Shown here: piece by piece, positions 3,595 through 50,029 of the stretch
Layout of the letters: each line of letters begins with the position of its first letter
Position numbering within the stretch: the stretch's first letter is position 1
DNA from: Candidatus Methanomethylophilaceae archaeon
GTDB taxonomy: Archaea; Thermoplasmatota; Thermoplasmata; Methanomassiliicoccales; Methanomethylophilaceae
Direction: 5' to 3'
Assembly: GCA_017524805.1 (NCBI GenBank)
Contig: JAFXUX010000007.1
Coordinates: 1-64,000, forward strand
Length of the DNA stretch: 64,000 bases
The notes under the pieces: generated by a model
Database searches by the model: none
What the model was told of the DNA's origin: nothing
What the model saw: the letters and a program-made list of their open reading frames with translations, nothing else
Position numbers and translations under genes: made by a program

Positions 3595-5034
3595 TCGCTG
3601 GAAACGCTTGAAATCGTACCTTCCATCCTTAATCCTGGCCAGCACCTCGGACGCGATCCCTTCCAACTCTTCGGCCGGAAACACGCCCGATGTCACGGAA
3701 GAGACGCCCGCGGTGGACAGCATTCCGATCCTGCACCTCGCCGCGCCGGCCCTCCTCTGTATGGGAGTAGACATGACGTCCGCGAACTGGATCTTGTCCA
3801 TGAGGATGTAATTCACGGTGCGGTCGTAGGCGCCGGTGACCATCATGACTATGTTCCCGTCGCTTGCGAACCTGCGGGTTCTGTAGGCCATGACGGCCCA
3901 GAAGGCGCATAATGCGATCGCCACCGCCAGCGCGATCCAAACCGCAGAACGGTATTCCGCCGGGATCCCCTTGGAAATTCCGTATGCCGCGAGGCAGGAC
4001 GCCGAGATGGCGATGGCGGACCAGAAGCACAGACCGACGGCGGAGACCCTCTCCTGCCCTATCCTCTCCCCGGCGCACTCGAACTCCGGGAGAAGGCTGT
4101 GGAGCAGATCCATAGCTACCTTCTTAGGCTTCAGCGGGCAGAGGATTGGGATGCCTTTGCTGTTGGCGGTCCCGACGACCTCCACCTCGAGTATGACCCT
4201 GCCCATGAGGCGGCATAGCAGAGGCTCGCGCACCTTGACATAGTTGACTTTGGACAGCATGAACGCGTCCTCTCTGGTGCTGAAGAATCCGGAGGACACC
4301 GATACCGCGTCCCCGGAGCGGGTGATGCGATATCTGTAGAGCCTGAAGAAGCTGGTGACTGCCGGAAGAAGGAAATCCAATATGAACAGGATGGTCGTGA
4401 AGAACGTTATGGATCCGCCGTAAACGAATGAGCCCACGGAATAGGCCAGCATGAACATGCCGAGGCCGAACTGCCCGCTGGACATCCCGAAAACTGAATG
4501 CAGGAGTATATCCCACACGCTCACGTGCACCAAGGATTCCGGTTCCGCCTCTTCGATGGGTTCCTCGCTGACGGGCACGGCTCTGCCGAATATGCGCGCG
4601 TCCATGTCCCTGCGGAGTTTCTCGGCCTCATCCTTCCTCAGGACTATGAAAGCCTCCGCCGAGGATGCGTTCACGCTGGAATTGAGGTTGAAGGAGAGTT
4701 TGGTCGCGCCCAGGATGCGGCATACCGCGTCCCTCTCCACGTTCACCGAGGCCAGCCTGTCATACTGTATGCGCGTCTCGGAGCGGATTATCGTGGAACG
4801 CTTCACGACCAGCTCGTCATCCAGGAAATAATATTTCGTCCTCTTCCAGACGATGATGTTCACGGCCAGCAATAATCCCACCATCAATGCGACCATGAGC
4901 AGATAGAGATCGAAATGGAACTCGTTCCCCATCCCGAGCGTGATCAGCAATACGATCGCGATGGCCACCAAAGACTTCACGGTGTTCGAGGCGACCATCG
5001 ACCAATGGTTCCGGAGGAATGGGGGCTCGGTCAT
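3595..5034 (-). CDS. PH-domain membrane protein, YdbT-like; ends at CGA
   Basis: Membrane protein with bacterial PH (bPH2, DUF304) domains, about 479 aa, resembling Bacillus YdbT. Hydrophobic hairpins lie near residues 15-55 and 160-215, with another pair after residue 300. PH-like strands follow each, e.g. KRSTIIRSETRIQYDRLASV after the first. The ATG at 5034 overlaps the upstream gene's TGA (ATGA). No standard stop occurs where the protein should end: the frame stays open for a further 642 nt, out of frame through the thermosome gene. The first in-frame CGA is at 3595-3597, exactly where the YdbT-type length is reached and just before a hairpin. I take it as the stop. The role is unknown; such pairs are linked to envelope stress in bacteria. 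Confidence 0.78.
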
Positions 5035-14288: not shown

Positions 14289-14792
14289 ATGAAAGTAACA
14301 AGCGAAGGCATAGACGAGAACGGATTCTTCCTCGACAAATACGGGTCCAAAGGCTCTGATTTCATAAAGAAGATGCCGTCCCTGTCGTTCCCATTCAAAA
14401 TCGAGGACGCCCCCGAAGGGACGGCCAGCTTCGCGTTCGTGTTCGACGACTACGACGCGGTTGAGGTCTCCGGATTCGACTGGATCCATTGGATAGGGGT
14501 CGGCCTGAAGAAATGCGAAGTGGAAGAGGGCGCATCCCGCAGCGACAACGATTTCATCGAAGGGCGCAACAGCTGGTGCGGAGCGTTTAACAAGTTCCCG
14601 ATCGAAAAGGCCACTGGATACGGCGGAATGGCCCCTCCGAACAAGACCCACAGATATACCCTCAAAGTCTTCGCCTTGGACTGCGACCTCAAACTTGAGA
14701 AAGGATTCCCTATCGGAGACCTGGTCTTCGGGATTATGGGGCATATCCTGGACTATGCCGTTCTCGTGGGGAAATACTCCCCGAAAAAGCGA
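14289..14792 (+). CDS. YbhB/YbcL family (PEBP-like) protein; ends at CGA
   Basis: Phosphatidylethanolamine-binding-protein fold, 167 aa, of the bacterial/archaeal YbhB/YbcL type. Motifs: SFAFVFDDYDA (the DxD-type ligand pocket), DWIHWIG in place of the usual WxHW, GYGGMAPP and HRYTLKVFALD. The family normally stops shortly after the strand seen here as HILDYAVLVGKY. No TGA, TAA or TAG occurs there; an in-frame CGA at 14790-14792 does. Beyond it the frame would run 120 nt further, antisense through a tRNA gene, giving residues with no family resemblance. I therefore end it at the CGA. Function unknown; it is the second gene after apt. Confidence 0.8.
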
Positions 14793-14810
14793 AGCAAACG
14801 AATTCCTCAG

Positions 14811-14884
14811 CGGCCCTGCCGGGATTTGAACCCGAGTTGTTGGTTCCGAAGTCCAACAGGATATCCATGCTACCCCACAGGGCC
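14811..14884 (-). tRNA. tRNA-Arg (TCG)
   Basis: Cloverleaf: acceptor GGCCCTG/CAGGGCC, D arm GGGGTAGCATGGATATCC, anticodon loop CTTCGGA, T loop TTCAAAT. Aligning it with the tRNA-Arg(GCG) at 19457-19533 puts TCG at positions 34-36. The closing pair of the anticodon stem (31-39) is an A-A mismatch, and CCA is not encoded, unlike two other tRNAs here. TCG is the only standard archaeal anticodon that can read CGA, so this gene bears directly on the proposed CGA stop. It may serve CGG only. Confidence 0.85.
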
Positions 14885-14905: not shown

Positions 14906-14916
14906 GATATAAAATT
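14906..14916 (+). promoter_or_regulatory. TATA box upstream of hypE
   Basis: CGATATAAAAT, with a predicted start near 14938. This lies after the first in-frame ATG (14928) and before the second (14970), and so supports the latter as the hypE start. Confidence 0.5.
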
Positions 14917-14969
14917 GTGGCATCAAGATGATAGCAATTCCTTTATCGGGATTGCTTGATTACGACGGC

Positions 14970-16016
14970 ATGTCGAAAGTGATCATGAACCACGGCGCCG
15001 GCGGGGAACTTATGCAGGAGTTCCTGGCTAAGCACATAACCAACCATTTCCCCAAGATGGATGCCGAAGTCCCCCTGGACTCCATGGACGATTCAGCCGT
15101 CATAGGCGACGTGGTGTTCACTATCGACGGGCACACCGTGAAGCCCCTTTTCTTCCCCGGAGGAGACATCGGAAAGATCTCGGTCGCCGGGACTGTCAAC
15201 GACATATCCGTCATGGGCGCCGCGCCGCTGGCTCTGGGATGCTCCGCCATAATAGAGGAAGGCCTGGAAATCGACGTCGTAGACAGGGTCATGGACAGCA
15301 TGGGAAAGACCGCCGCCGGATGCGGGGTTCCCATCGCGACCGGAGACACCAAAGTCGTCGAATCCGGGGCGGTGGACCAGATGGTCCTGTCGACTTCCGC
15401 CGTCGGGAAGAGATCCGCATATCTCGACTCCAACCTGGCCAAAGCGGCCGAATACAGGGAAGTGAAGAACAGATGGTGCACCGACTCGTCTGTTAGGCCC
15501 GGGGACGCCATAATCGTGTCCGGATATGTGGGAGACCACGGCGTAGCGCTGCTTTCATTCCGCGAAGGATACGGGTTCGAAAGCGAGGTTGAGAGCGATG
15601 TGGCACCTCTGAACGGCATGATCGCCGAGGGCCTGAAAGCCGGAGGCATCGTCGCCATGAAAGACCCGACCCGCGGAGGCCTGGCCAACACGCTCAACGA
15701 ATGGTGCTCCAAATCCCACATAGGCATGGAGATCGATTATGCCGACATCCCCCTGAGGGAGGGCGTCGTCAGCGCCTGCGACCTGCTGGGCATAGACCCG
15801 CTCAGCATAGGGAACGAAGGGAAGGCCGTCATCGCCGTCGTCCCTGAGATGGCCGACGAAGTCCTCAGAGCCATCAGAAAGACTCCTGAAGGCAGGAACG
15901 CATCCATAATAGGGAAGGCAGTCGACGGAGTGGAAAGAGTGGTCATGAGGACCGAGATCGGCGGGAGAAGGATACTCGAAGCCCCCGCCGGAGACCCCGT
16001 CCCCAGGATCTGCTGA
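14970..16016 (+). CDS. hypE: Hydrogenase maturation protein HypE
   Basis: About 348 aa. HypE converts a C-terminal thiocarboxamide to the thiocyanate that supplies cyanide for the NiFe cofactor. The C-terminus PRIC, with the modified terminal cysteine, is diagnostic. Other motifs are NHGAGGELM near the N-terminus, DDSAVIGD, and PTRGGLA. The ATG at 14970 begins MSKVIMNHGAGG, the normal family start; an in-frame ATG at 14928 would add 14 residues but lies ahead of the predicted transcription start. hypB lies 21 kb away. The organism therefore makes NiFe hydrogenases, in line with hydrogen-dependent methylotrophic methanogenesis. Confidence 0.95.
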   Translation: MSKVIMNHGAGGELMQEFLAKHITNHFPKMDAEVPLDSMDDSAVIGDVVFTIDGHTVKPLFFPGGDIGKISVAGTVNDISVMGAAPLALGCSAIIEEGLEIDVVDRVMDSMGKTAAGCGVPIATGDTKVVESGAVDQMVLSTSAVGKRSAYLDSNLAKAAEYREVKNRWCTDSSVRPGDAIIVSGYVGDHGVALLSFREGYGFESEVESDVAPLNGMIAEGLKAGGIVAMKDPTRGGLANTLNEWCSKSHIGMEIDYADIPLREGVVSACDLLGIDPLSIGNEGKAVIAVVPEMADEVLRAIRKTPEGRNASIIGKAVDGVERVVMRTEIGGRRILEAPAGDPVPRIC

Positions 16017-19456: not shown

Positions 19457-19533
19457 TGGTGCCCGCGCCGGGATTCGAACCCGGGTCAGGAGATCCGCAA
19501 TCTCACAGGATATCCAAGCTACCCCACGCGGGC
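19457..19533 (-). tRNA. tRNA-Arg (GCG)
   Basis: Acceptor GCCCGCG/CGCGGGC, D arm nearly identical to the TCG isoacceptor, anticodon loop TTGCGGA giving GCG (codons CGC/CGT), T loop TTCGAAT, discriminator A and encoded CCA. Confidence 0.92.
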
Positions 19534-25819: not shown

Positions 25820-26359
25820 ATGGATCTGGAAAAATTTGAATCTCTGCGCAGCCCGCGCATAACTTTCGTGAGCGAATTCAGCCTGGCCGATGCCGGGATC
25901 AGAGTCGACGAAAGCATAAGGTCTTACTGCGAGCAGAACCTGTGCGGAATGTGCGGAAAGAACTGGGCGTGCCCGCCGTACGTACCATCGGTCGAGATCT
26001 GCAGAAACATCGTCGCATCATACGGCGGCATGATTCTGATAAGAACCACATTTCCGAGAACGAGCCTGTTCGATCTGGAAGAGATGGATGCGGCCTCCGA
26101 AGAACACCACTCCGTCGTCAAAGCGATAAGGAAAGAATTCAGAGAGAAATGCGAGGGCAAGACGATGATTCTGTCGGCAGGCGGATGCAGGAACTGCCGG
26201 GAATGCAGCTGCCCGAAAGAGCCGTGCAGAGACCCGAAAAACAAGATGAACTCTATAGAGTCGTATGCCATCGATCTGGATTCTTTCCTCATCAAAAACA
26301 GGATTCCGCGCCGGGGAGGCAGCGATGAGCAGTCGTTCTTCGCCATGGTGCTTTTCCGA
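25820..26359 (+). CDS. DUF2284 cysteine-rich metal-binding protein; ends at CGA
   Basis: 179 aa. DUF2284 proteins are predicted metal-binding. Cysteines sit in CEQNLCGMCGKNWACPPY (about residues 36-53) and in GGCRNCRECSCPKEPC (about 120-135), enough for one or two Fe-S or zinc sites. The family ends near the strand seen here as SFFAMVLF. The next codon is CGA (26357-26359). With standard stops the frame continues 168 nt, antisense into a ferredoxin gene, with unrelated residues. It follows the corrinoid-methyltransferase and precedes ferredoxins. DUF2284 genes often accompany corrinoid methyltransferases, so a redox or activation role is plausible but inferred. Confidence 0.82.
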
Positions 26360-29341: not shown

Positions 29342-29911
29342 ATGAGATACAGGCCGGAATTCCGCGTCGCCGAAGATCCCGATGTATATCCGCCGTCCGA
29401 GGACAGCATCCTGCTGATAGAATCGTTGGAGGTGCATCCAGGCGAAAGGGTGCTGGAGATTGGCTGCGGCTCCGGGATCGTCTCGATGCATTGCGCCGCG
29501 GAAGGCTGCGAAGTTGTCGCCGGGGACATCAACCCGAAGGCCGTGGATCTTGCTCGCAGGAACCTCGCCGACAACAATCTTCCCGCGGATGTTAAGGAAA
29601 CCGACGTGTACAGCGCCATAGAAGGGCGTTTCGACACTATAGTTTTCAATCTCCCCTATCTCCCGGTGGACGAGGAAGGCTTGCTGGCAAAGGCATGGTC
29701 CGGAGGCCCCGACGGTTTGGGACCTCTGCCTGAGCTTCTTAGGGGGGCCCCCGAGCACCTCAATGAAGGCGGAAGAGTCGTCATAGTCGTGTCTTCATTG
29801 ATGGACCAATCCTCTCTCGGAGACGTTTTGGAAGGGCATGACATAAGAATCCTCGGGAAGACCAAGCTGTTCTTCGAGGAGCTTTCCGTGGTTGAGATTC
29901 GTAATCTCCGA
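29342..29911 (+). CDS. HemK2/Mtq2-type protein-glutamine methyltransferase; ends at CGA
   Basis: 189 aa SAM-dependent methyltransferase of the HemK/PrmC group. SAM motif VLEIGCGSGIVS (about residues 39-50), DINPKAVDLA, and the catalytic FNLPYLP in place of NPPY. Small archaeal members (HemK2/Mtq2) methylate the GGQ glutamine of release factor aRF1. The family ends just after FFEELSVVEI, and here a CGA stands at 29909-29911 after EIRNL. A TAA follows only 39 nt later, so a longer version (202 aa) is possible. It is notable that a gene for release-factor modification itself appears to end at the reassigned codon. Confidence 0.85.
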
Positions 29912-33786: not shown

Positions 33787-35655
33787 TCATCCCAAAAGTT
33801 TCTGTATTGCCTCGGTCAGCAGCTTGTTGACCTGCTTTCCGTCCAGCCTGCCTTTGAGAGCTCCCATGACGGGGCCCATAAGCGGGCCGACGGCGGCCAT
33901 GCCCTTGGAGCGGACGAAATCCGCCCTCTCATTGACGATGCCTTCGATTATAGCCGCGGCTTCGCCCTCGTCTACGGCCTCCAGACCGAGCTTTCCTATC
34001 GAATCCTCGGCTGAAGTTCCCTTGGCCATCTCGCCCAATAACGCCGGAAGAGCTTCCTTGGCGAACTTGCCCTCCTTCAGAAGATCGAAGGCGTGGGCGA
34101 GAGAGTCGTCGGAGATCGCGGATACGTCGGCCCCGCCGCGCTCCATCTCGCTGAACGTGTTGAGCAAAGTCGTGGCGGCCACGGATGCCATCCCCTTGTC
34201 CGCGGCTATCCTCTCGAAGACCTCGTCCTGGCTCTGCCTGACTATCTGCCTGGCTTGCTGGACATTTATGCCGTAATCGCGCACCAGACGGGCCTCGATC
34301 TGCTCCGGGAACTCGGGCATGCTGTCCCTGATGTCCTTCATCATAACATCGGTTATGAGCGTGGGAGGAACATCGGTCTCAGGATACATCCTGGCCGCCC
34401 CCGGGAGCGGCCTGGAATACTTTGTGGTCCCGTCCGGAAGCGGGTCCCTTGTCTCTTCAGGCACGCCTTCCAAAGCTTCGTTGGCCCTGCTGACGGCCAT
34501 CTCCAGCGCGTCTCTGGCCTTCTTCTCTTTGGCTGCGCAGATTACGAACGCGTCGTTCTCCCCGCTGACGCCGAGGAACTCCCTCAGCTTGCCGACATAG
34601 ACCTGCTCAATGCCGTAGTTGGGAAGCTCATCGGAATGGAAGATTCCTTTGACGCCTTTGGTGCGGGCGCGCTGGGCCATCTCGGCCCCGAGCCTGAGGG
34701 TCCCTCCGTCGCCGTTCATGACGCCGGCGAATCCCGGCAGGCGCACGGCGAGGACTTTGCCCTTGTCCGAAAGGGCGCCTTTGATCACCTTGGATTCGCA
34801 CCCGTCGAACACAGACGTGGCATCCACAATCTCGAAATCCGCAGGCTTCGTCCCTCTTTTGCTCAGAATATCTTTGACCCTGAGGAGCATCTTCTGCCTG
34901 CTGACCTCGTTCCTGACGTAATCCGGGATGAGCTTGAGATCCCCGACCCCTTTGAGCTCGATGCGGGCCCCTCCGGGGATGGAGATGTTAAGGTCCTGCC
35001 TGATGGTTCCCAGACCTCTCTTGACCCTCTTGGTGGCCCTCAGAAGCGTCCCGAGCCTGTATGCGACTTCCATGACTTCCTCGGGAGTCCTCATGTCGGG
35101 GCCGGTGGCCACTTCGATGAGAGGAATTCCCAGACGGTCGGTCCTCCAGACGACCTCGTCCGATTTCGTCTCTACCCTGCGGCACGCGTCCTCCTCCAGG
35201 CACACGGAAAGTATGGAGATTTTCCTGTCGCCTACCGAGACAGAACCGTCGGTGGATATCAGAGCGGTCCTCTGGAAACCGGAGGTGTTGGAACCATCGA
35301 CGACGATCTTCCTCATGAAGTGAACCTCGTCTATGATGTTGGCACCCAGCATCTCCGAGAAAGTCAGGGCGATAGTCAGAGCGTCGTCGTTGACGTCGTG
35401 CGGAGGCTCCTCATCCAGCTCGACCAAACAGCTGGTCCCCTCGCAGCACTGGTATCTGTATCCCATATGCCTCTGGAACTGGGCCAGAGCGGCGCGGTCG
35501 ATCTCTCCCATCTCCGAGGTAGTCGGCCTTAGCCTTCTGTAAATGTCCCCGAATCCTTCCTCGCAGAGCCTGGAGTCGCAGGAGCAGAACAGCTTCTTGG
35601 TGTCCAGCTGCTGGTGGATCTCGATCCCGCACATCATCTCGTACTCTTCGCTCAT
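33787..35655 (-). CDS. gatE: Glutamyl-tRNA(Gln) amidotransferase subunit E
   Basis: 622 aa. With GatD it converts Glu-tRNA(Gln) to Gln-tRNA(Gln), the archaeal route. Motifs: CGIEIHQQLDT at the N-terminus, GIPLIEVATGPD, LGTIRQDLN, and the YqeY-like tail domain (about residues 430-622) with IEARLVRDYGI. The ATG at 35655 lies inside the end of gatD, with AGGAGG seven nucleotides upstream. No CGA was seen among its many arginine codons, and it ends in TGA. Confidence 0.96.
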   Translation of the reverse strand: MSEEYEMMCGIEIHQQLDTKKLFCSCDSRLCEEGFGDIYRRLRPTTSEMGEIDRAALAQFQRHMGYRYQCCEGTSCLVELDEEPPHDVNDDALTIALTFSEMLGANIIDEVHFMRKIVVDGSNTSGFQRTALISTDGSVSVGDRKISILSVCLEEDACRRVETKSDEVVWRTDRLGIPLIEVATGPDMRTPEEVMEVAYRLGTLLRATKRVKRGLGTIRQDLNISIPGGARIELKGVGDLKLIPDYVRNEVSRQKMLLRVKDILSKRGTKPADFEIVDATSVFDGCESKVIKGALSDKGKVLAVRLPGFAGVMNGDGGTLRLGAEMAQRARTKGVKGIFHSDELPNYGIEQVYVGKLREFLGVSGENDAFVICAAKEKKARDALEMAVSRANEALEGVPEETRDPLPDGTTKYSRPLPGAARMYPETDVPPTLITDVMMKDIRDSMPEFPEQIEARLVRDYGINVQQARQIVRQSQDEVFERIAADKGMASVAATTLLNTFSEMERGGADVSAISDDSLAHAFDLLKEGKFAKEALPALLGEMAKGTSAEDSIGKLGLEAVDEGEAAAIIEGIVNERADFVRSKGMAAVGPLMGPVMGALKGRLDGKQVNKLLTEAIQKLLG

Positions 35656-36946
35656 CTGCGGTCCTCCTGTCTGACATCTCGCCTGCGATGGGCGTCTTCA
35701 TGAGGATTTTGGCCTCTTCCGGCGAGGAGGTGTTGGCCAGCGCCCACATCAGTTTGACGTAGGCGGTCTCGGGAAGCATGTCCAAGACGGTCACGACTCC
35801 CGCGGAAAGCATGTCCCTTCCGGTGTTGTACACGTTGAGGTTGGTCCTCCCGTTCAGGCACTGGGACGTCATCACGACCACCGTGCCCCTCTCGTTGGCC
35901 TTCCTGATCAGAGGTATCATGCCTTCGTTTACGTGGCCCAGACCGGAACCGGCGATAACTATCCCCTTGGATCTCATGAATATGTCCTCGAACATGAAAG
36001 GCTCCATCCCGGGGAAATACTGGAGCAGAACGCAGGACCTCTCCATCCCGATTATCGCCTTCGCCTGCCCTTTCGACACAGGCTCCCCGCTCCCGCTGAA
36101 GACGATCTTGCCGTCTTTGTCTATGTGAGCCACGGGAAGGGCGTTGATGCTTCTGAACGCGTCGCGTCTGGACGTATGCATCTTCCTGACTCTGGTACCG
36201 GCGTGCACCGCGAACGAATCGTCGCCCAAAGTGTCGTGCATAACCACGAACACCCCGGCGCGGTTCCCTTGGGTGCAGAACCTCGCGCAGGCGACCAGAT
36301 TGCTGGATGCGTCCGATGACGGGCGGTCGGAAGACCTCTGCGCCCCCACCAGAACCACGGGCTTCGTTATTCCGCGCAGCATGAAGGAAAGCGCCGCAGC
36401 GGTGTATCCCATGGTATCCGTCCCATGGGGGATGATGACCCCGTCGGCCCCGTTGTTTATCTCCTGGGCGACGGCCTCCGCGAGCTCCTGCCAATGCTCC
36501 ACGCCCATGTTCTCCGAGAATATGGAGAACAGAACCCTCGCGTCGATGTTGGCGATATCCCTGATCTCCGGCACGGCATTGACCATGTCCGAAGTGGAAA
36601 GCGCCGGATGGACCGCCCCCGTCCTGTAATCGACATAGGATGCGATGGTCCCGCCGGTCCCTATGAGGACGAGTTTTGGGAGACCTTTCCTGTATTCGAC
36701 CTCCGCCTCTTTCCTCACCCTCTCTGCCGGCTTCTCCAAAACCTCTATCGAAGTGGAATCCGTTATCCTCACCCCGACGTTGTACCCGCTCTTCATCTTG
36801 AGGATGAGGATGTCGGGCGCGCTGAATTCATGGTGAGGCATCAGCGTTCCCACGAACGTCCTTCCGTCCCTGACGACGGACAGTTTAGCGCCTTCGGAAG
36901 CCCCTAAAGCTTCCAAGGCCTTTGAAAGTGCGTCTGAGTAGCTCAT
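35648..36946 (-). CDS. gatD: Glutamyl-tRNA(Gln) amidotransferase subunit D; ends at CGA
   Basis: 432 aa asparaginase-like glutaminase that feeds ammonia to GatE. Motifs: LIGTGGTIASY with the first catalytic Thr, IPHGTDTMGYTA with the second Thr-Asp pair, and an N-terminal small barrel (residues 1-90). The GatD C-terminus is expected just after IAGEMSDR. The first in-frame CGA is at 35648-35650, giving a normal 8-nt overlap with gatE. With only standard stops it would run 237 nt further out of frame through gatE. The start MSYSDALSK at 36946 fits a TATA element near 37013-37020; an upstream ATG at 37021 is less likely. Confidence 0.87.
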
Positions 36947-37012
36947 GCTGTTCGCCCAGACATGAGGGTCGCCGTTTATCACTATTCCTACGGATATCGG
37001 GGCGCCACGGCC

Positions 37013-37024
37013 AATATACATTAT
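37013..37024. promoter_or_regulatory. Divergent promoter of gatD and hypB
   Basis: CAATATACATTA is TATA-like on both strands. On the plus strand it predicts a start close to the hypB ATG (37050), possibly a leaderless mRNA; on the minus strand a start near 36990, upstream of the gatD ATG at 36946. Confidence 0.4.
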
Positions 37025-37704: not shown

Positions 37705-39027
37705 ATGAAATTCCTTACAGTGGGAGGAGGCGGAAGGGAGCACGCAGCGGTGGAAGCCCTTCGCAGATCCGGCGCGGAGATCTATGCGGCTATGAAGAAC
37801 GCCAACCCCGGCATAATCGCCGCCTCGAAGAAGCACATACTGTGCGATGAAAAGGACTTCGCCAAGATCTGCGCTTTCGCGAAGGAGAACGGAGTCGAAT
37901 ACGCTTTCATCGGCCCGGAAGCCCCGTTGGAAGCGGGAATCGTGGATGCCTTGGAAAAGGAAGGGATAAAATGCGCCGCCCCGACCAAAGCCGCCGCGAG
38001 GATCGAGACCTCAAAGACCTTCATGAGGGAGCTCGTCAAGAAATACGGCATCGAGGGGAACCTCGGTTTCGCCCATTTCGATAACGCCGCCGACGCCGAG
38101 AAGTATCTGAAGACCATAGACCACGAAATCGTCGTGAAACCGGTGGGTCTCACCGGCGGAAAAGGGGTGAAGGTCCAGGGAGAGCACCTCCACAGCTTCG
38201 AGGACACCATGGGCTACATCCGCGAGATATTCGACAACAACATCGGCGGCGCCGGAGTGATCCTGGAGGAGAGGGCGATCGGCGAGGAATTCACCCAGAT
38301 GGTGTTCGTAGATGGAAAGACTATAGTGCCGCTTCCGCTGGTCCAGGACCACAAAAGAGCGTACGAAGGAGACGTAGGGCCCAACACCGGCGGCATGGGC
38401 TCTTACACCGATTCGAACCATCTTCTCCCGTTCATAACCGAATCCGAAAGGCGCGAAGCACTCGCCATCCTGCAGAGCATAGTCGATGCGATGGCAAAAG
38501 AGGGATGCCCCTACCGCGGGACCATGTACGGGCAGTTCATGCTGACCGTCAGCGGGCCCAAAATCATCGAGATCAACGCCAGATTCGGGGACCCGGAGGC
38601 CATGAACGTACTCCCGATCCTCAAAACCGGGTTCGGGGACATCTGCAGGATGATGGCCACAGGAACCCTGAGCGGAAACGTGGAGTTCGAGAGGAAAGCC
38701 ACAGTCTGCAAATACGTCGTGCCGAGAGGATATGGCGTGAAATCAGAGTCCGGGCATGAGATTTCCGTTGACGAAGAGGCCATCAGGAGATGCGGCGCCA
38801 CGGTCTACTATGCCAACGTCGACGTGAAGGATGGAAAGCTGGTTACCGGCACGTCCAGATCCGTGGGCGTCATCGGCATCGCTGACACCCTCGAAGAGGC
38901 GGAATCCAACTGCGAAAAGGCTTTGGAATACGTCATATGCGACGCGATAGCGGTCCGCCACGACATCGGCACCCGCGCCCTCATCCAGAAAAGAGTGGAC
39001 CACATGAAGGCGCTCAGATCCGCATGA
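37705..39027 (+). CDS. purD: Phosphoribosylamine-glycine ligase (GAR synthetase)
   Basis: 440 aa ATP-grasp enzyme of purine synthesis, joining phosphoribosylamine and glycine. Motifs: FLTVGGGGREHA at the N-terminus, GPEAPLEAGIVD, KPVGLTGGKGVKV in the ATP-grasp, GAGVILEER, and NARFGDPE binding Mg-ATP. The ATG at 37705 follows the hypB TGA by 4 nt. Its TGA overlaps the truA ATG. No CGA was seen among about 25 arginines. Confidence 0.95.
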   Translation: MKFLTVGGGGREHAAVEALRRSGAEIYAAMKNANPGIIAASKKHILCDEKDFAKICAFAKENGVEYAFIGPEAPLEAGIVDALEKEGIKCAAPTKAAARIETSKTFMRELVKKYGIEGNLGFAHFDNAADAEKYLKTIDHEIVVKPVGLTGGKGVKVQGEHLHSFEDTMGYIREIFDNNIGGAGVILEERAIGEEFTQMVFVDGKTIVPLPLVQDHKRAYEGDVGPNTGGMGSYTDSNHLLPFITESERREALAILQSIVDAMAKEGCPYRGTMYGQFMLTVSGPKIIEINARFGDPEAMNVLPILKTGFGDICRMMATGTLSGNVEFERKATVCKYVVPRGYGVKSESGHEISVDEEAIRRCGATVYYANVDVKDGKLVTGTSRSVGVIGIADTLEEAESNCEKALEYVICDAIAVRHDIGTRALIQKRVDHMKALRSA

Positions 39028-39794
39028 AGCGCGTTTTGATGAAGATAGCCTATCTGGGGTCCGGATTCTCCGGGTCCCAGACCCAGCCTGGGAAACGCAC
39101 GGTGGAATCCCAGGTTCTTTCCGACCTCAGGAAAGTATTGGGAACAGAAGACCCGTGCTTGGAGTTCTCCAGCCGCACCGACCGCGGCGTCAACGCCCTC
39201 GGAAATGCGATAGCGTTCGTCTCTCCCATGGACGATCTGAGGATTCTTTCCAAAGCCCTAAATTCGGTCACAGACGGAGTTTTTTACAGGCAATACTGCG
39301 GAATCGACGGGGAATTCAACGTCAGGCACGCATCCCGCCGCATATACCGCTACATCTTGGACGCAGATGGCATCGATTTCGATAAAGCAAAGGAATGCTG
39401 CGGACTGTTCGAAGGCACCCACGATTTCGTCAGGTTCTGCCGCTACGACGGCAAGCCGACGACTTTGACCATAGATAGACTACAGTGCTATTTGGAAAAT
39501 AACACTATAGTGCTCCAATTCGAAGCCAGATACTATCTGTGGAACATGATACGCAGGATCGCGTCGGCAGTGGAATCCGTCGGCAGAGGGAAAACTGATG
39601 TATCTGAAGTGGAGGCTGCGCTCAACGGGAAGAACGCCACTTTCGGAGTCGGGCGCCCGGAATCGCTGACTCTTATGGATGTGCAGTACGACATGCTGAG
39701 CTTCGAAGACTCCGACCCAAGAGGAATCTCCGGAAGGAAAAAAGAAGGGCTGCGGGAAGCCGATCTGCTCAGAAGCTTCTACAGCTCCCTGCGA
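39024..39794 (+). CDS. truA: tRNA pseudouridine synthase A; ends at CGA
   Basis: 256 aa. TruA makes pseudouridine at tRNA positions 38-40. Motifs: the catalytic Asp in SSRTDRGVNALGN (about residue 53), RIYRYIL, and ARYYLWNMIRRI. The ATG overlaps the purD TGA (ATGA). The family ends soon after LMDVQYD and a short helix. Here the helix ends SFYSSL followed by CGA (39792-39794). With standard stops alone it would be fused to the translin gene as a 461-residue protein. Instead a TATA box lies right after the CGA and a separate translin start follows, which argues for two genes. Confidence 0.88.
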
Positions 39795-39827: not shown

Positions 39828-40409
39828 ATGGACAACCTCGAGCAGACGGCGAACAAGGCCGCGGAAGCCCTCGCAGAGATGGAAAGCTCCAGAGAAGAAG
39901 CTATAAGACGTTCCAGATCGGTCATCCGCCTGTCCAAAAATGTTATGCATGCCATCCACACAGGCGCTCAGCCGGACGGATCTCTCGGCGACATGAGAAC
40001 CGAGATTCAATCGATGCTTGAAATCTGCGAAGACCCGGCGATCCTGATGTCAGGCCCCGTCCAAGATGCCATGGCAGAATTCGCCGAAGCCGAGATCATG
40101 CATGCCCTGGCATCCGGTTCTCCGGTGCAGGATTACTCCGGGCTGCACATAACGCCGTCCGCATGGATTCTGGGCCTCTGCGACTGCGAAGGCGAGATGA
40201 GACGCATGGTTGTGTCCGAGCTTATGGAAGGACACCTGGACGAAGCCAGAGTCGCATTCGGAAAGATGGAATCCCTGCATGAGATAATCATGGGCTTCGA
40301 CATATCTGATGGCGTGGCGCAGGTCAGAAGGAAGCAGGACATCGCCAGAGGCGTCATGGACAGGACACGCTCGGACCTGCTCAATGCAACTTTGAAATAT
40401 GCTCCATAA
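39828..40409 (+). CDS. Translin-family protein
   Basis: 193 aa, all helical. Translin/TRAX proteins bind and sometimes cut RNA as octameric shells. Seen: SREEAIRRSRSVIRLSKN in the first helices, LGLCDCEGEMRRMVV in the middle, and the C-terminal signature RRKQDIARGVMDRTRSDL. It looks complete from the ATG at 39828, which has a TATA box at leaderless distance. It ends in TAA. In the frame it is continuous with truA across 33 nt, but the gap contains CGA and the promoter. Confidence 0.85.
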   Translation: MDNLEQTANKAAEALAEMESSREEAIRRSRSVIRLSKNVMHAIHTGAQPDGSLGDMRTEIQSMLEICEDPAILMSGPVQDAMAEFAEAEIMHALASGSPVQDYSGLHITPSAWILGLCDCEGEMRRMVVSELMEGHLDEARVAFGKMESLHEIIMGFDISDGVAQVRRKQDIARGVMDRTRSDLLNATLKYAP

Positions 40410-49384: not shown

Positions 49385-50029
49385 TCGCAATCCGAGCATG
49401 TCGTCGGCGTAAAGCTTCGCCGCTTCGCGGGGGTCATCAGCCCCATATATCGCCCTGCCGACTATGGCATAATCCGCGCCTGCGCGTATCGCATCGGAAG
49501 CTTTGCCTCCCTGGGCGCCGACGCCCGGGGACAGAATCTTCCTGTCCGGACCTATTACCGCACGGATGGCAGCAATCCTGTCCGGGCGCGTTGCGGGCGC
49601 GATGAATCCTTTTGCCCCGCATTCGGCCCCGAGCCTCGCCATCTCTTCCGCATGGAGAGCGGTGAACATTTTGGCCCCTGGATGGCTCATCTCGGTGACG
49701 GCATAGATTTCCGCCCCTCCGGCCGCCTCGACCGCCGCCCTCAAAGAATCGTCTCCGGTGAACGCGTGCACTATCACGGCGGACGCGCCCCTGGAAACGG
49801 CGTTCTCGACGATCAGCCTGACAGTGTTGGGTATGTCGGCCACCTTGAAATCGCATATGACTTCGGACAGTTCGGAAAGGCGGTTGATCATCTGCGGGCC
49901 TTCGGAAAGGACCAGAGGCCAATTGATCTTTATCGCGTCGACGATATCGGCCACCTTCCCGGCGACTGCCAAAGCTTTCTCCCCGTCCGTCTCGTCCAAG
50001 GCGAGGACCAGCCTGCTCTCTTTCTTCAT
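49385..50029 (-). CDS. pyrF: Orotidine-5'-phosphate decarboxylase; ends at CGA
   Basis: 214 aa, TIM-barrel enzyme of pyrimidine synthesis (OMP to UMP). Motifs: LALDETDGEKAL at the N-terminus, KINWPLVLS, the catalytic VICDFKVADIPNT (DxKxxD), SPGVGAQGG, and the C-terminal GRAIYGADDPREAAK. The family ends shortly after the last helix, here LYADDMLGL, and the next codon is CGA (49385-49387). With standard stops the frame would continue 108 nt into the start of the aglB-like gene, through its promoter. Length 214 fits archaeal PyrF. It is divergent from the radical SAM gene. Confidence 0.9.

Follow-up and report, generated by a model that had tools for sequence, protein, structure and literature searches.

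Results

Genes and features around the tRNA-Arg(TCG) gene

The window analysed here, a 64,000-nucleotide stretch with a GC content of 56%, belongs to a genome of 1.95 Mb (G000; 47 contigs, 98% complete). Its host is a member of a UBA71-type genus (GTDB) of gut methane-producing archaea within the Methanomethylophilaceae (Methanomassiliicoccales). The group takes in UBA71, and the named records closest to the host are rumen and gut MAGs such as Tb.RUG.172.

The locus contains a tRNA-Arg gene with anticodon TCG (Table 1). An earlier note on this DNA had placed this tRNA at 14811-14884, on the opposite strand 18 nt past a gene that ends at CGA; ARAGORN and the Rfam tRNA model agree on the tRNA, and the neighbouring gene, which encodes a phosphatidylethanolamine-binding protein (PBP), does end at CGA. 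The PF01161 match covers residues 27-163 of the 167 residues of PBP and reaches the end of the profile, and CGA then follows. Beyond CGA, the next in-frame canonical stop lies at 14912, past the tRNA; the resulting 39-aa extension overlies the tRNA and matched no Pfam family. In five relatives (G018, G027, G010, G005 and G024), the PBP homologue ends with TGA no more than one codon from the aligned position; in G026 it has CGA at the same codon. In the related genome G029, the order apt-PBP-HypE-tRNA-Thr is the same as in the window, no tRNA lies between PBP and HypE, and both apt and PBP end in CGA.

The anticodon arm of the window tRNA reads TTGGA-CTTCGGA-ACCAA. The stem check confirmed the A-A mismatch at 31-39 described in the earlier note: all other acceptor, anticodon and T-stem pairs are intact, and 31-39 is the one non-pair of the cloverleaf. 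An encoded CCA is indeed absent, as the note had observed, but this does not distinguish the gene, as 19 of the 41 tRNAs examined in G000 have no encoded CCA either; the missing CCA was thus ruled out as a mark of damage. Five tRNA-Arg genes were found in G000 (TCG, GCG, CCG, TCT and CCT), with a single TCG copy, and this answers the note's question about a CCG isoacceptor in the affirmative.

Table 1. Features of the window and the aRF1 gene of the same genome (window positions unless a contig is given)
Feature	Position	Strand	Evidence or remark
CGA-ended gene; table-11 frame continues 213 codons without coding signal	3595..5034	-	coding-signal test
PBP gene, ends at CGA 14790-14792	14289..14792	+	Pfam PF01161
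Second in-frame CGA (tandem stop), three codons past PBP CGA	14799..14801	+	also in G026
tRNA-Arg, anticodon TCG	14810..14884 (ARAGORN / Rfam start 14810/14811)	-	ARAGORN; Rfam RF00005, 50 bits; stem check
Anticodon TCG of tRNA-Arg	14847-14849	-	
Unpaired A31 and A39 of tRNA-Arg(TCG)	14852 (A31), 14844 (A39)	-	stem check
AIRS/HypE-like gene, marks syntenic tRNA position in relatives	14928..16016	+	Pfam AIRS, AIRS_C; synteny G001, G029
tRNA-Arg(GCG), reads CGC/CGU	19457..19533	-	ARAGORN
DUF2284 gene, CGA end	25820..26359	+	PF10050 profile 7-161/161, ends residue 179 of 179
Methyltransferase gene, CGA end probable, TAA 13 codons later	29342..29911	+	PF05175 to residue 158 of 189
GatD-type asparaginase gene, CGA end; 78 further codons to canonical stop	35648..37021	-	Asparaginase_C ends residue 441 of 457
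tRNA pseudouridine synthase gene, CGA end	39024..39794	+	PF01416
CGA-ended gene	49385..50029	-	coding-signal test
aRF1 gene	G000:C8:56980-58209		one in-frame CGA, codon 78 (Arg) in SIAARLKT

The anticodon arm of tRNA-Arg(UCG) is odd in the genus copies examined

Comparison with relatives showed that the 31-39 mismatch, whose conservation the earlier note had wanted examined, is kept in 19 genomes of the genus as A-A (12) or C-A (7). Outgroup copies are paired at this position and fully paired elsewhere. In a second subclade of eight genomes (L105-L109, L128, L301 and L342), tRNA-Arg(UCG) carries C33 instead of U33, which is near-universal in tRNAs. Every genus copy examined therefore has an odd anticodon arm, with either 31-39 unpaired (19 genomes) or C33 (eight). 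Within the C33 subclade, pair 27-43 is also lost in five of the six distinct sequences (G003, G007, G009, G012 and G025); the basal copy (G023) keeps this pair, and the open copies show four different base combinations. No tRNA-Arg(TCG) was found among the 44 tRNAs of G029, in which tRNA-Arg(CCG) is present. The cognate tRNA has thus been lost in G029; each other genome in which it was found keeps an altered version of it.

The loss in G029 would be expected if tRNA-Arg(UCG) were a decaying gene, left behind when CGA was abandoned, and if the A-A mismatch were drift. However, in the 15 sequences tested, pairs 6-67, 7-66, 28-42 and 29-41 change compensatorily while 31-39 is never paired, and the tRNA occurs in nearly all genomes together with a CGA at codon 78 of the aRF1 gene (CGA78). 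Because the stems covary while exactly 31-39 stays unpaired, the function of this tRNA looks to have been maintained, and we consider its decay unlikely.

CGA is avoided inside genes and used at gene ends

CGA was counted in G000 with a codon-usage gene model on 564 kb (29% of the genome), and in the relatives on smaller samples. Self-trained automatic gene calls chose shadow frames in some genomes, and G000-seeded or amino-acid-seeded models were used instead. All-against-all homology counts of internal CGA were discarded, as they were inflated by shadow frames.

In G000, there are 17 in-frame CGA codons versus 3,004 and 9,361 occurrences in the two remaining phases. Because the avoidance is restricted to frame 0, it is due to translation rather than to base composition. 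Two internal CGA codons were found in the sample (~159,000 codons): CGA78 of aRF1 and one in the gene for a DUF4143-type ATPase. The latter is, outside aRF1, the one internal CGA with coding signal on both sides in 159,337 codons with 8,350 Arg codons. It is codon 324 of an ORF on the + strand (L320, G000:C6:42000-61999) and was perhaps recently acquired.

Among 467 gene ends in the G000 sample, 49 are CGA, 367 TGA, 36 TAA and 15 TAG. The Pfam domains of the window genes finish just before CGA (Table 1). Without a stop at CGA, the frame of the pseudouridine synthase fuses to the next gene (39828-40409), which has its own Translin domain (PF01997). The methyltransferase gene was not flagged by the coding-signal test and is a weaker case. 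When the CGA ends of G000 were compared with homologues, the result was mixed (18 canonical, 7 CGA and 16 “reads on”): many of the extensions run over adjacent genes, and the shadow frames of these genes align as well. TG frequently comes directly after a CGA end (15 of 49, versus 22 of 368 for TGA), and the resulting CGATG can overlap the next start codon; the apt-PBP junction of G029 is one such case. An excess of T at +4 after CGA stops (27/49 vs 106/368 for TGA, P 5e-4) largely reflects these overlaps with ATG and was rejected as a termination-context signal.

CGA ends are typically aligned with TGA in homologues. CGA closes 32 of 74 genes in G029; of 155 comparisons with homologues, 148 place a canonical stop of the partner no more than 15 codons away, many of them at +0. 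No CGA ends were found in samples of 33-55 genes from G010, G015, G018, G019 and G028, and in these genomes CGA may merely be avoided. G035, an outgroup from the same family, uses CGA as a normal, if rare, Arg codon (11/650 internal).

In G001, G027 and G008 (L154, L158 and L220), a frame of about 650-890 codons contains a CGA flanked on either side by homologous sequence, with 377, 385 and 389 residues before and 503, 500 and 256 residues after it, respectively. The homologous frames continue in G014, G015, G020, G028 and G029, and those in G000 and G026 end near the CGA position with TGA. Two separate genes, an effect of shadow frames or a fusion made by regulated readthrough may underlie this pattern.

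These comparisons strongly support CGA as a fourth stop codon in the genus. The earlier note had regarded the presence of the cognate tRNA as the “strongest counter-evidence” to such a stop. This objection does not hold, since CGA is near-absent as a sense codon and G029, the heaviest user of CGA stops, has lost the tRNA.

The release factor gene carries a conserved CGA

Of 26 genus genomes, 25 have CGA at codon 78 of aRF1 and one, G029, has CGC; the other Arg sites of the gene are AGG, AGA, CGC or CGT almost throughout. Across 18 named genus genomes, CGA accounts for 18 of 402 Arg codons in aRF1 versus 1 of 5,695 in neighbour genes (Fisher P 7e-21). In the rest of the family, the counts are 57 of 860 versus 64 of 9,089 (P 3e-29), mostly at codons 25-123; both P values are nominal, with related genomes treated as independent, and what stands out is that a single codon in a single gene has retained CGA where almost no other has. 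Outside the family, the excess in aRF1 is 1.6-fold only. Arg25 of aRF1 is encoded by CGA in 23 of 39 family genomes outside the genus (such as L260, L261 and L264), where CGA is rare in neighbour genes, which suggests that the CGA signal in aRF1 is older than the genus.

The aRF1 gene is open in one frame across CGA78 and has no prfB-type frameshift motif. Because the frame is the same on both sides, full-length aRF1 can be made only if CGA78 is decoded as Arg. NIKS, the stop-recognition motif, precedes CGA78, and no unusual synonymous conservation or conserved signal was found around CGA78 beyond the codon itself. The protein keeps NIKS and YRCDS, and none of its substitutions is linked specifically to the reading of CGA. 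Two changes are no more than candidates for determinants of CGA recognition: TMKNV for TRKNV (family-wide) and a Q before SQ(A/S) (in the genus; aromatic in most outgroups). In G029, the genes for aRF1 (L138) and Pelota (L151) themselves end at CGA. A loss of Pelota in CGA-stop genomes, which a missing second eRF1_2 match had suggested, was ruled out when a direct search found Pelota in G000. CGA78 would be a conserved in-frame stop inside the factor's own gene that is read by aRF1; the enrichment of CGA in aRF1 is an indirect sign that the factor recognises this codon. Autoregulation of aRF1 through CGA78 is a strong inference.

Discussion

Taken together, these data point to a mechanism that we hold with a probability of about 0.77, wherein CGA would be a fourth stop codon recognised by the single release factor aRF1, tRNA-Arg(UCG) its surviving competitor and CGA78 the site of feedback. 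When aRF1 is plentiful, it would terminate at its own CGA78, after 77 codons. When aRF1 is scarce, tRNA-Arg(UCG) would insert Arg78 and full-length aRF1 would be produced. The odd anticodon arm would set the competition with aRF1: it may lower the reading of CGA so that aRF1 wins, or it may tune readthrough. The tRNA probably persists because it reads the one CGA of the aRF1 gene. The earlier note had also put forward the tRNA as the mechanistic key, and the conserved in-frame CGA of aRF1 would explain why it was retained; competition between aRF1 and the tRNA with regulated read-through, another of its proposals, is the likely logic.

We also consider it reasonably probable, though with less confidence than the mechanism itself, that this is a free-living cellular lineage in which a sense codon, CGA, became a stop and one tunable tRNA is kept essentially for the CGA78 sensor. 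The family would then display the stages of this change: first CGA is rare and aRF1 carries it, then its use is mixed, and finally reassignment is complete and both tRNA and sensor are lost. G029 would represent the last stage, with CGA now a major stop and both the sensor codon and the tRNA gone.

Alternatively, CGA could be a hungry, unassigned codon, served by a poor tRNA, at which ribosomes stall and are rescued by Pelota/ABCE1, with no true recognition by aRF1. This would fit with the presence of Pelota, with an anticodon arm that is unusual in every genome and with the absence of the tRNA from G029. However, stalling does not explain why CGA should take the place of TGA at about 10-43% of gene ends, or why a conserved CGA lies in the release factor gene in particular; we therefore consider it quite unlikely. 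C-to-U editing would convert CGA to UGA in the mRNA, so that termination is that of an ordinary UGA and the tRNA is a relic. It would equally account for CGA ends that stand for the TGA of homologues, but bulk editing would corrupt many codons, as CGA is abundant in the other two phases and avoided only in frame 0. Nor does editing predict the loss of tRNA-Arg(UCG) in G029, and it is improbable. That tRNA-Arg(UCG) is needed mainly for CGG is hardly credible: CGG is in use (112 of about 4,400 Arg codons in the first 284 kb of G000) and U34 can wobble to G, but tRNA-Arg(CCG) exists in both G000 and G029, so that CGG decoding does not require the TCG tRNA, G029 lives without it, and the earlier idea that it “reads only CGG” is unnecessary.

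The proposed feedback by aRF1 resembles the autoregulation of bacterial RF2, in which prfB contains an in-frame UGA bypassed by a +1 frameshift (PMC12421855, PMC13245932). In both, a stop read by the factor lies early inside the factor's own gene, and the sensor is conserved across a clade. Bacteria in which RF2-specific stops are common have lost the autoregulation of prfB (PMC12421855), and the sensor is likewise lost here with high use of the factor's stop codon (CGA in G029). In contrast to prfB, the codon here is a reassigned sense codon with the same frame on both sides, escape would occur by a cognate tRNA and not by a frameshift, and archaeal aRF1 is unrelated to RF2.

Sense-to-stop changes have been described in organelles, including AGR in vertebrate mitochondria and UUA/UCA in peDinoflagellate plastids and some algal mitochondria (PMC12574857); this 2025 study called the plastid case the first outside mitochondria. 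As in these systems, the codon, here CGA, has all but disappeared from the interiors of conserved genes and is found at gene ends, at positions where homologues carry canonical stops. Unlike in organelles, the genome is cellular, all canonical stops are kept and the cognate tRNA persists in most members. CGA and CGG have been reassigned to Trp or Gln in low-GC bacteria (Shulgina and Eddy 2021, PMC8629427). The codon box and the route through a rare codon are the same, whereas that change is sense-to-sense and CGA here becomes a stop, in an archaeon whose window has 56% GC.

For tRNAs with a 4-bp anticodon stem, opening of the top pair 27-43 reportedly improves stop-codon readthrough (NAR 2026, PMC13092985), and the five C33-clade copies of tRNA-Arg(UCG) with 27-43 unpaired are similar in this respect. 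The window tRNA pairs 27-43 (T-A) and reads a cognate codon. Because its open pair is the bottom pair 31-39, the published result is not simply transferable to it.

In the literature covered, outside which lie preprints and most subscription papers, we found no report of a CGA stop or of sense-to-stop reassignment in cells. The known cases of such reassignment are organellar; its occurrence in a cellular genome that keeps the tRNA and carries a release-factor sensor looks new. Our data suggest that autoregulation of a release factor arose independently in archaea, with mechanics unlike those of prfB. In standard annotations of the genus, reading CGA as Arg would give proteins that are erroneously extended or fused. 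Moreover, related species show apparent successive stages, which makes the order of codon rarity, release-factor gain, tRNA change and tRNA loss testable within this family.
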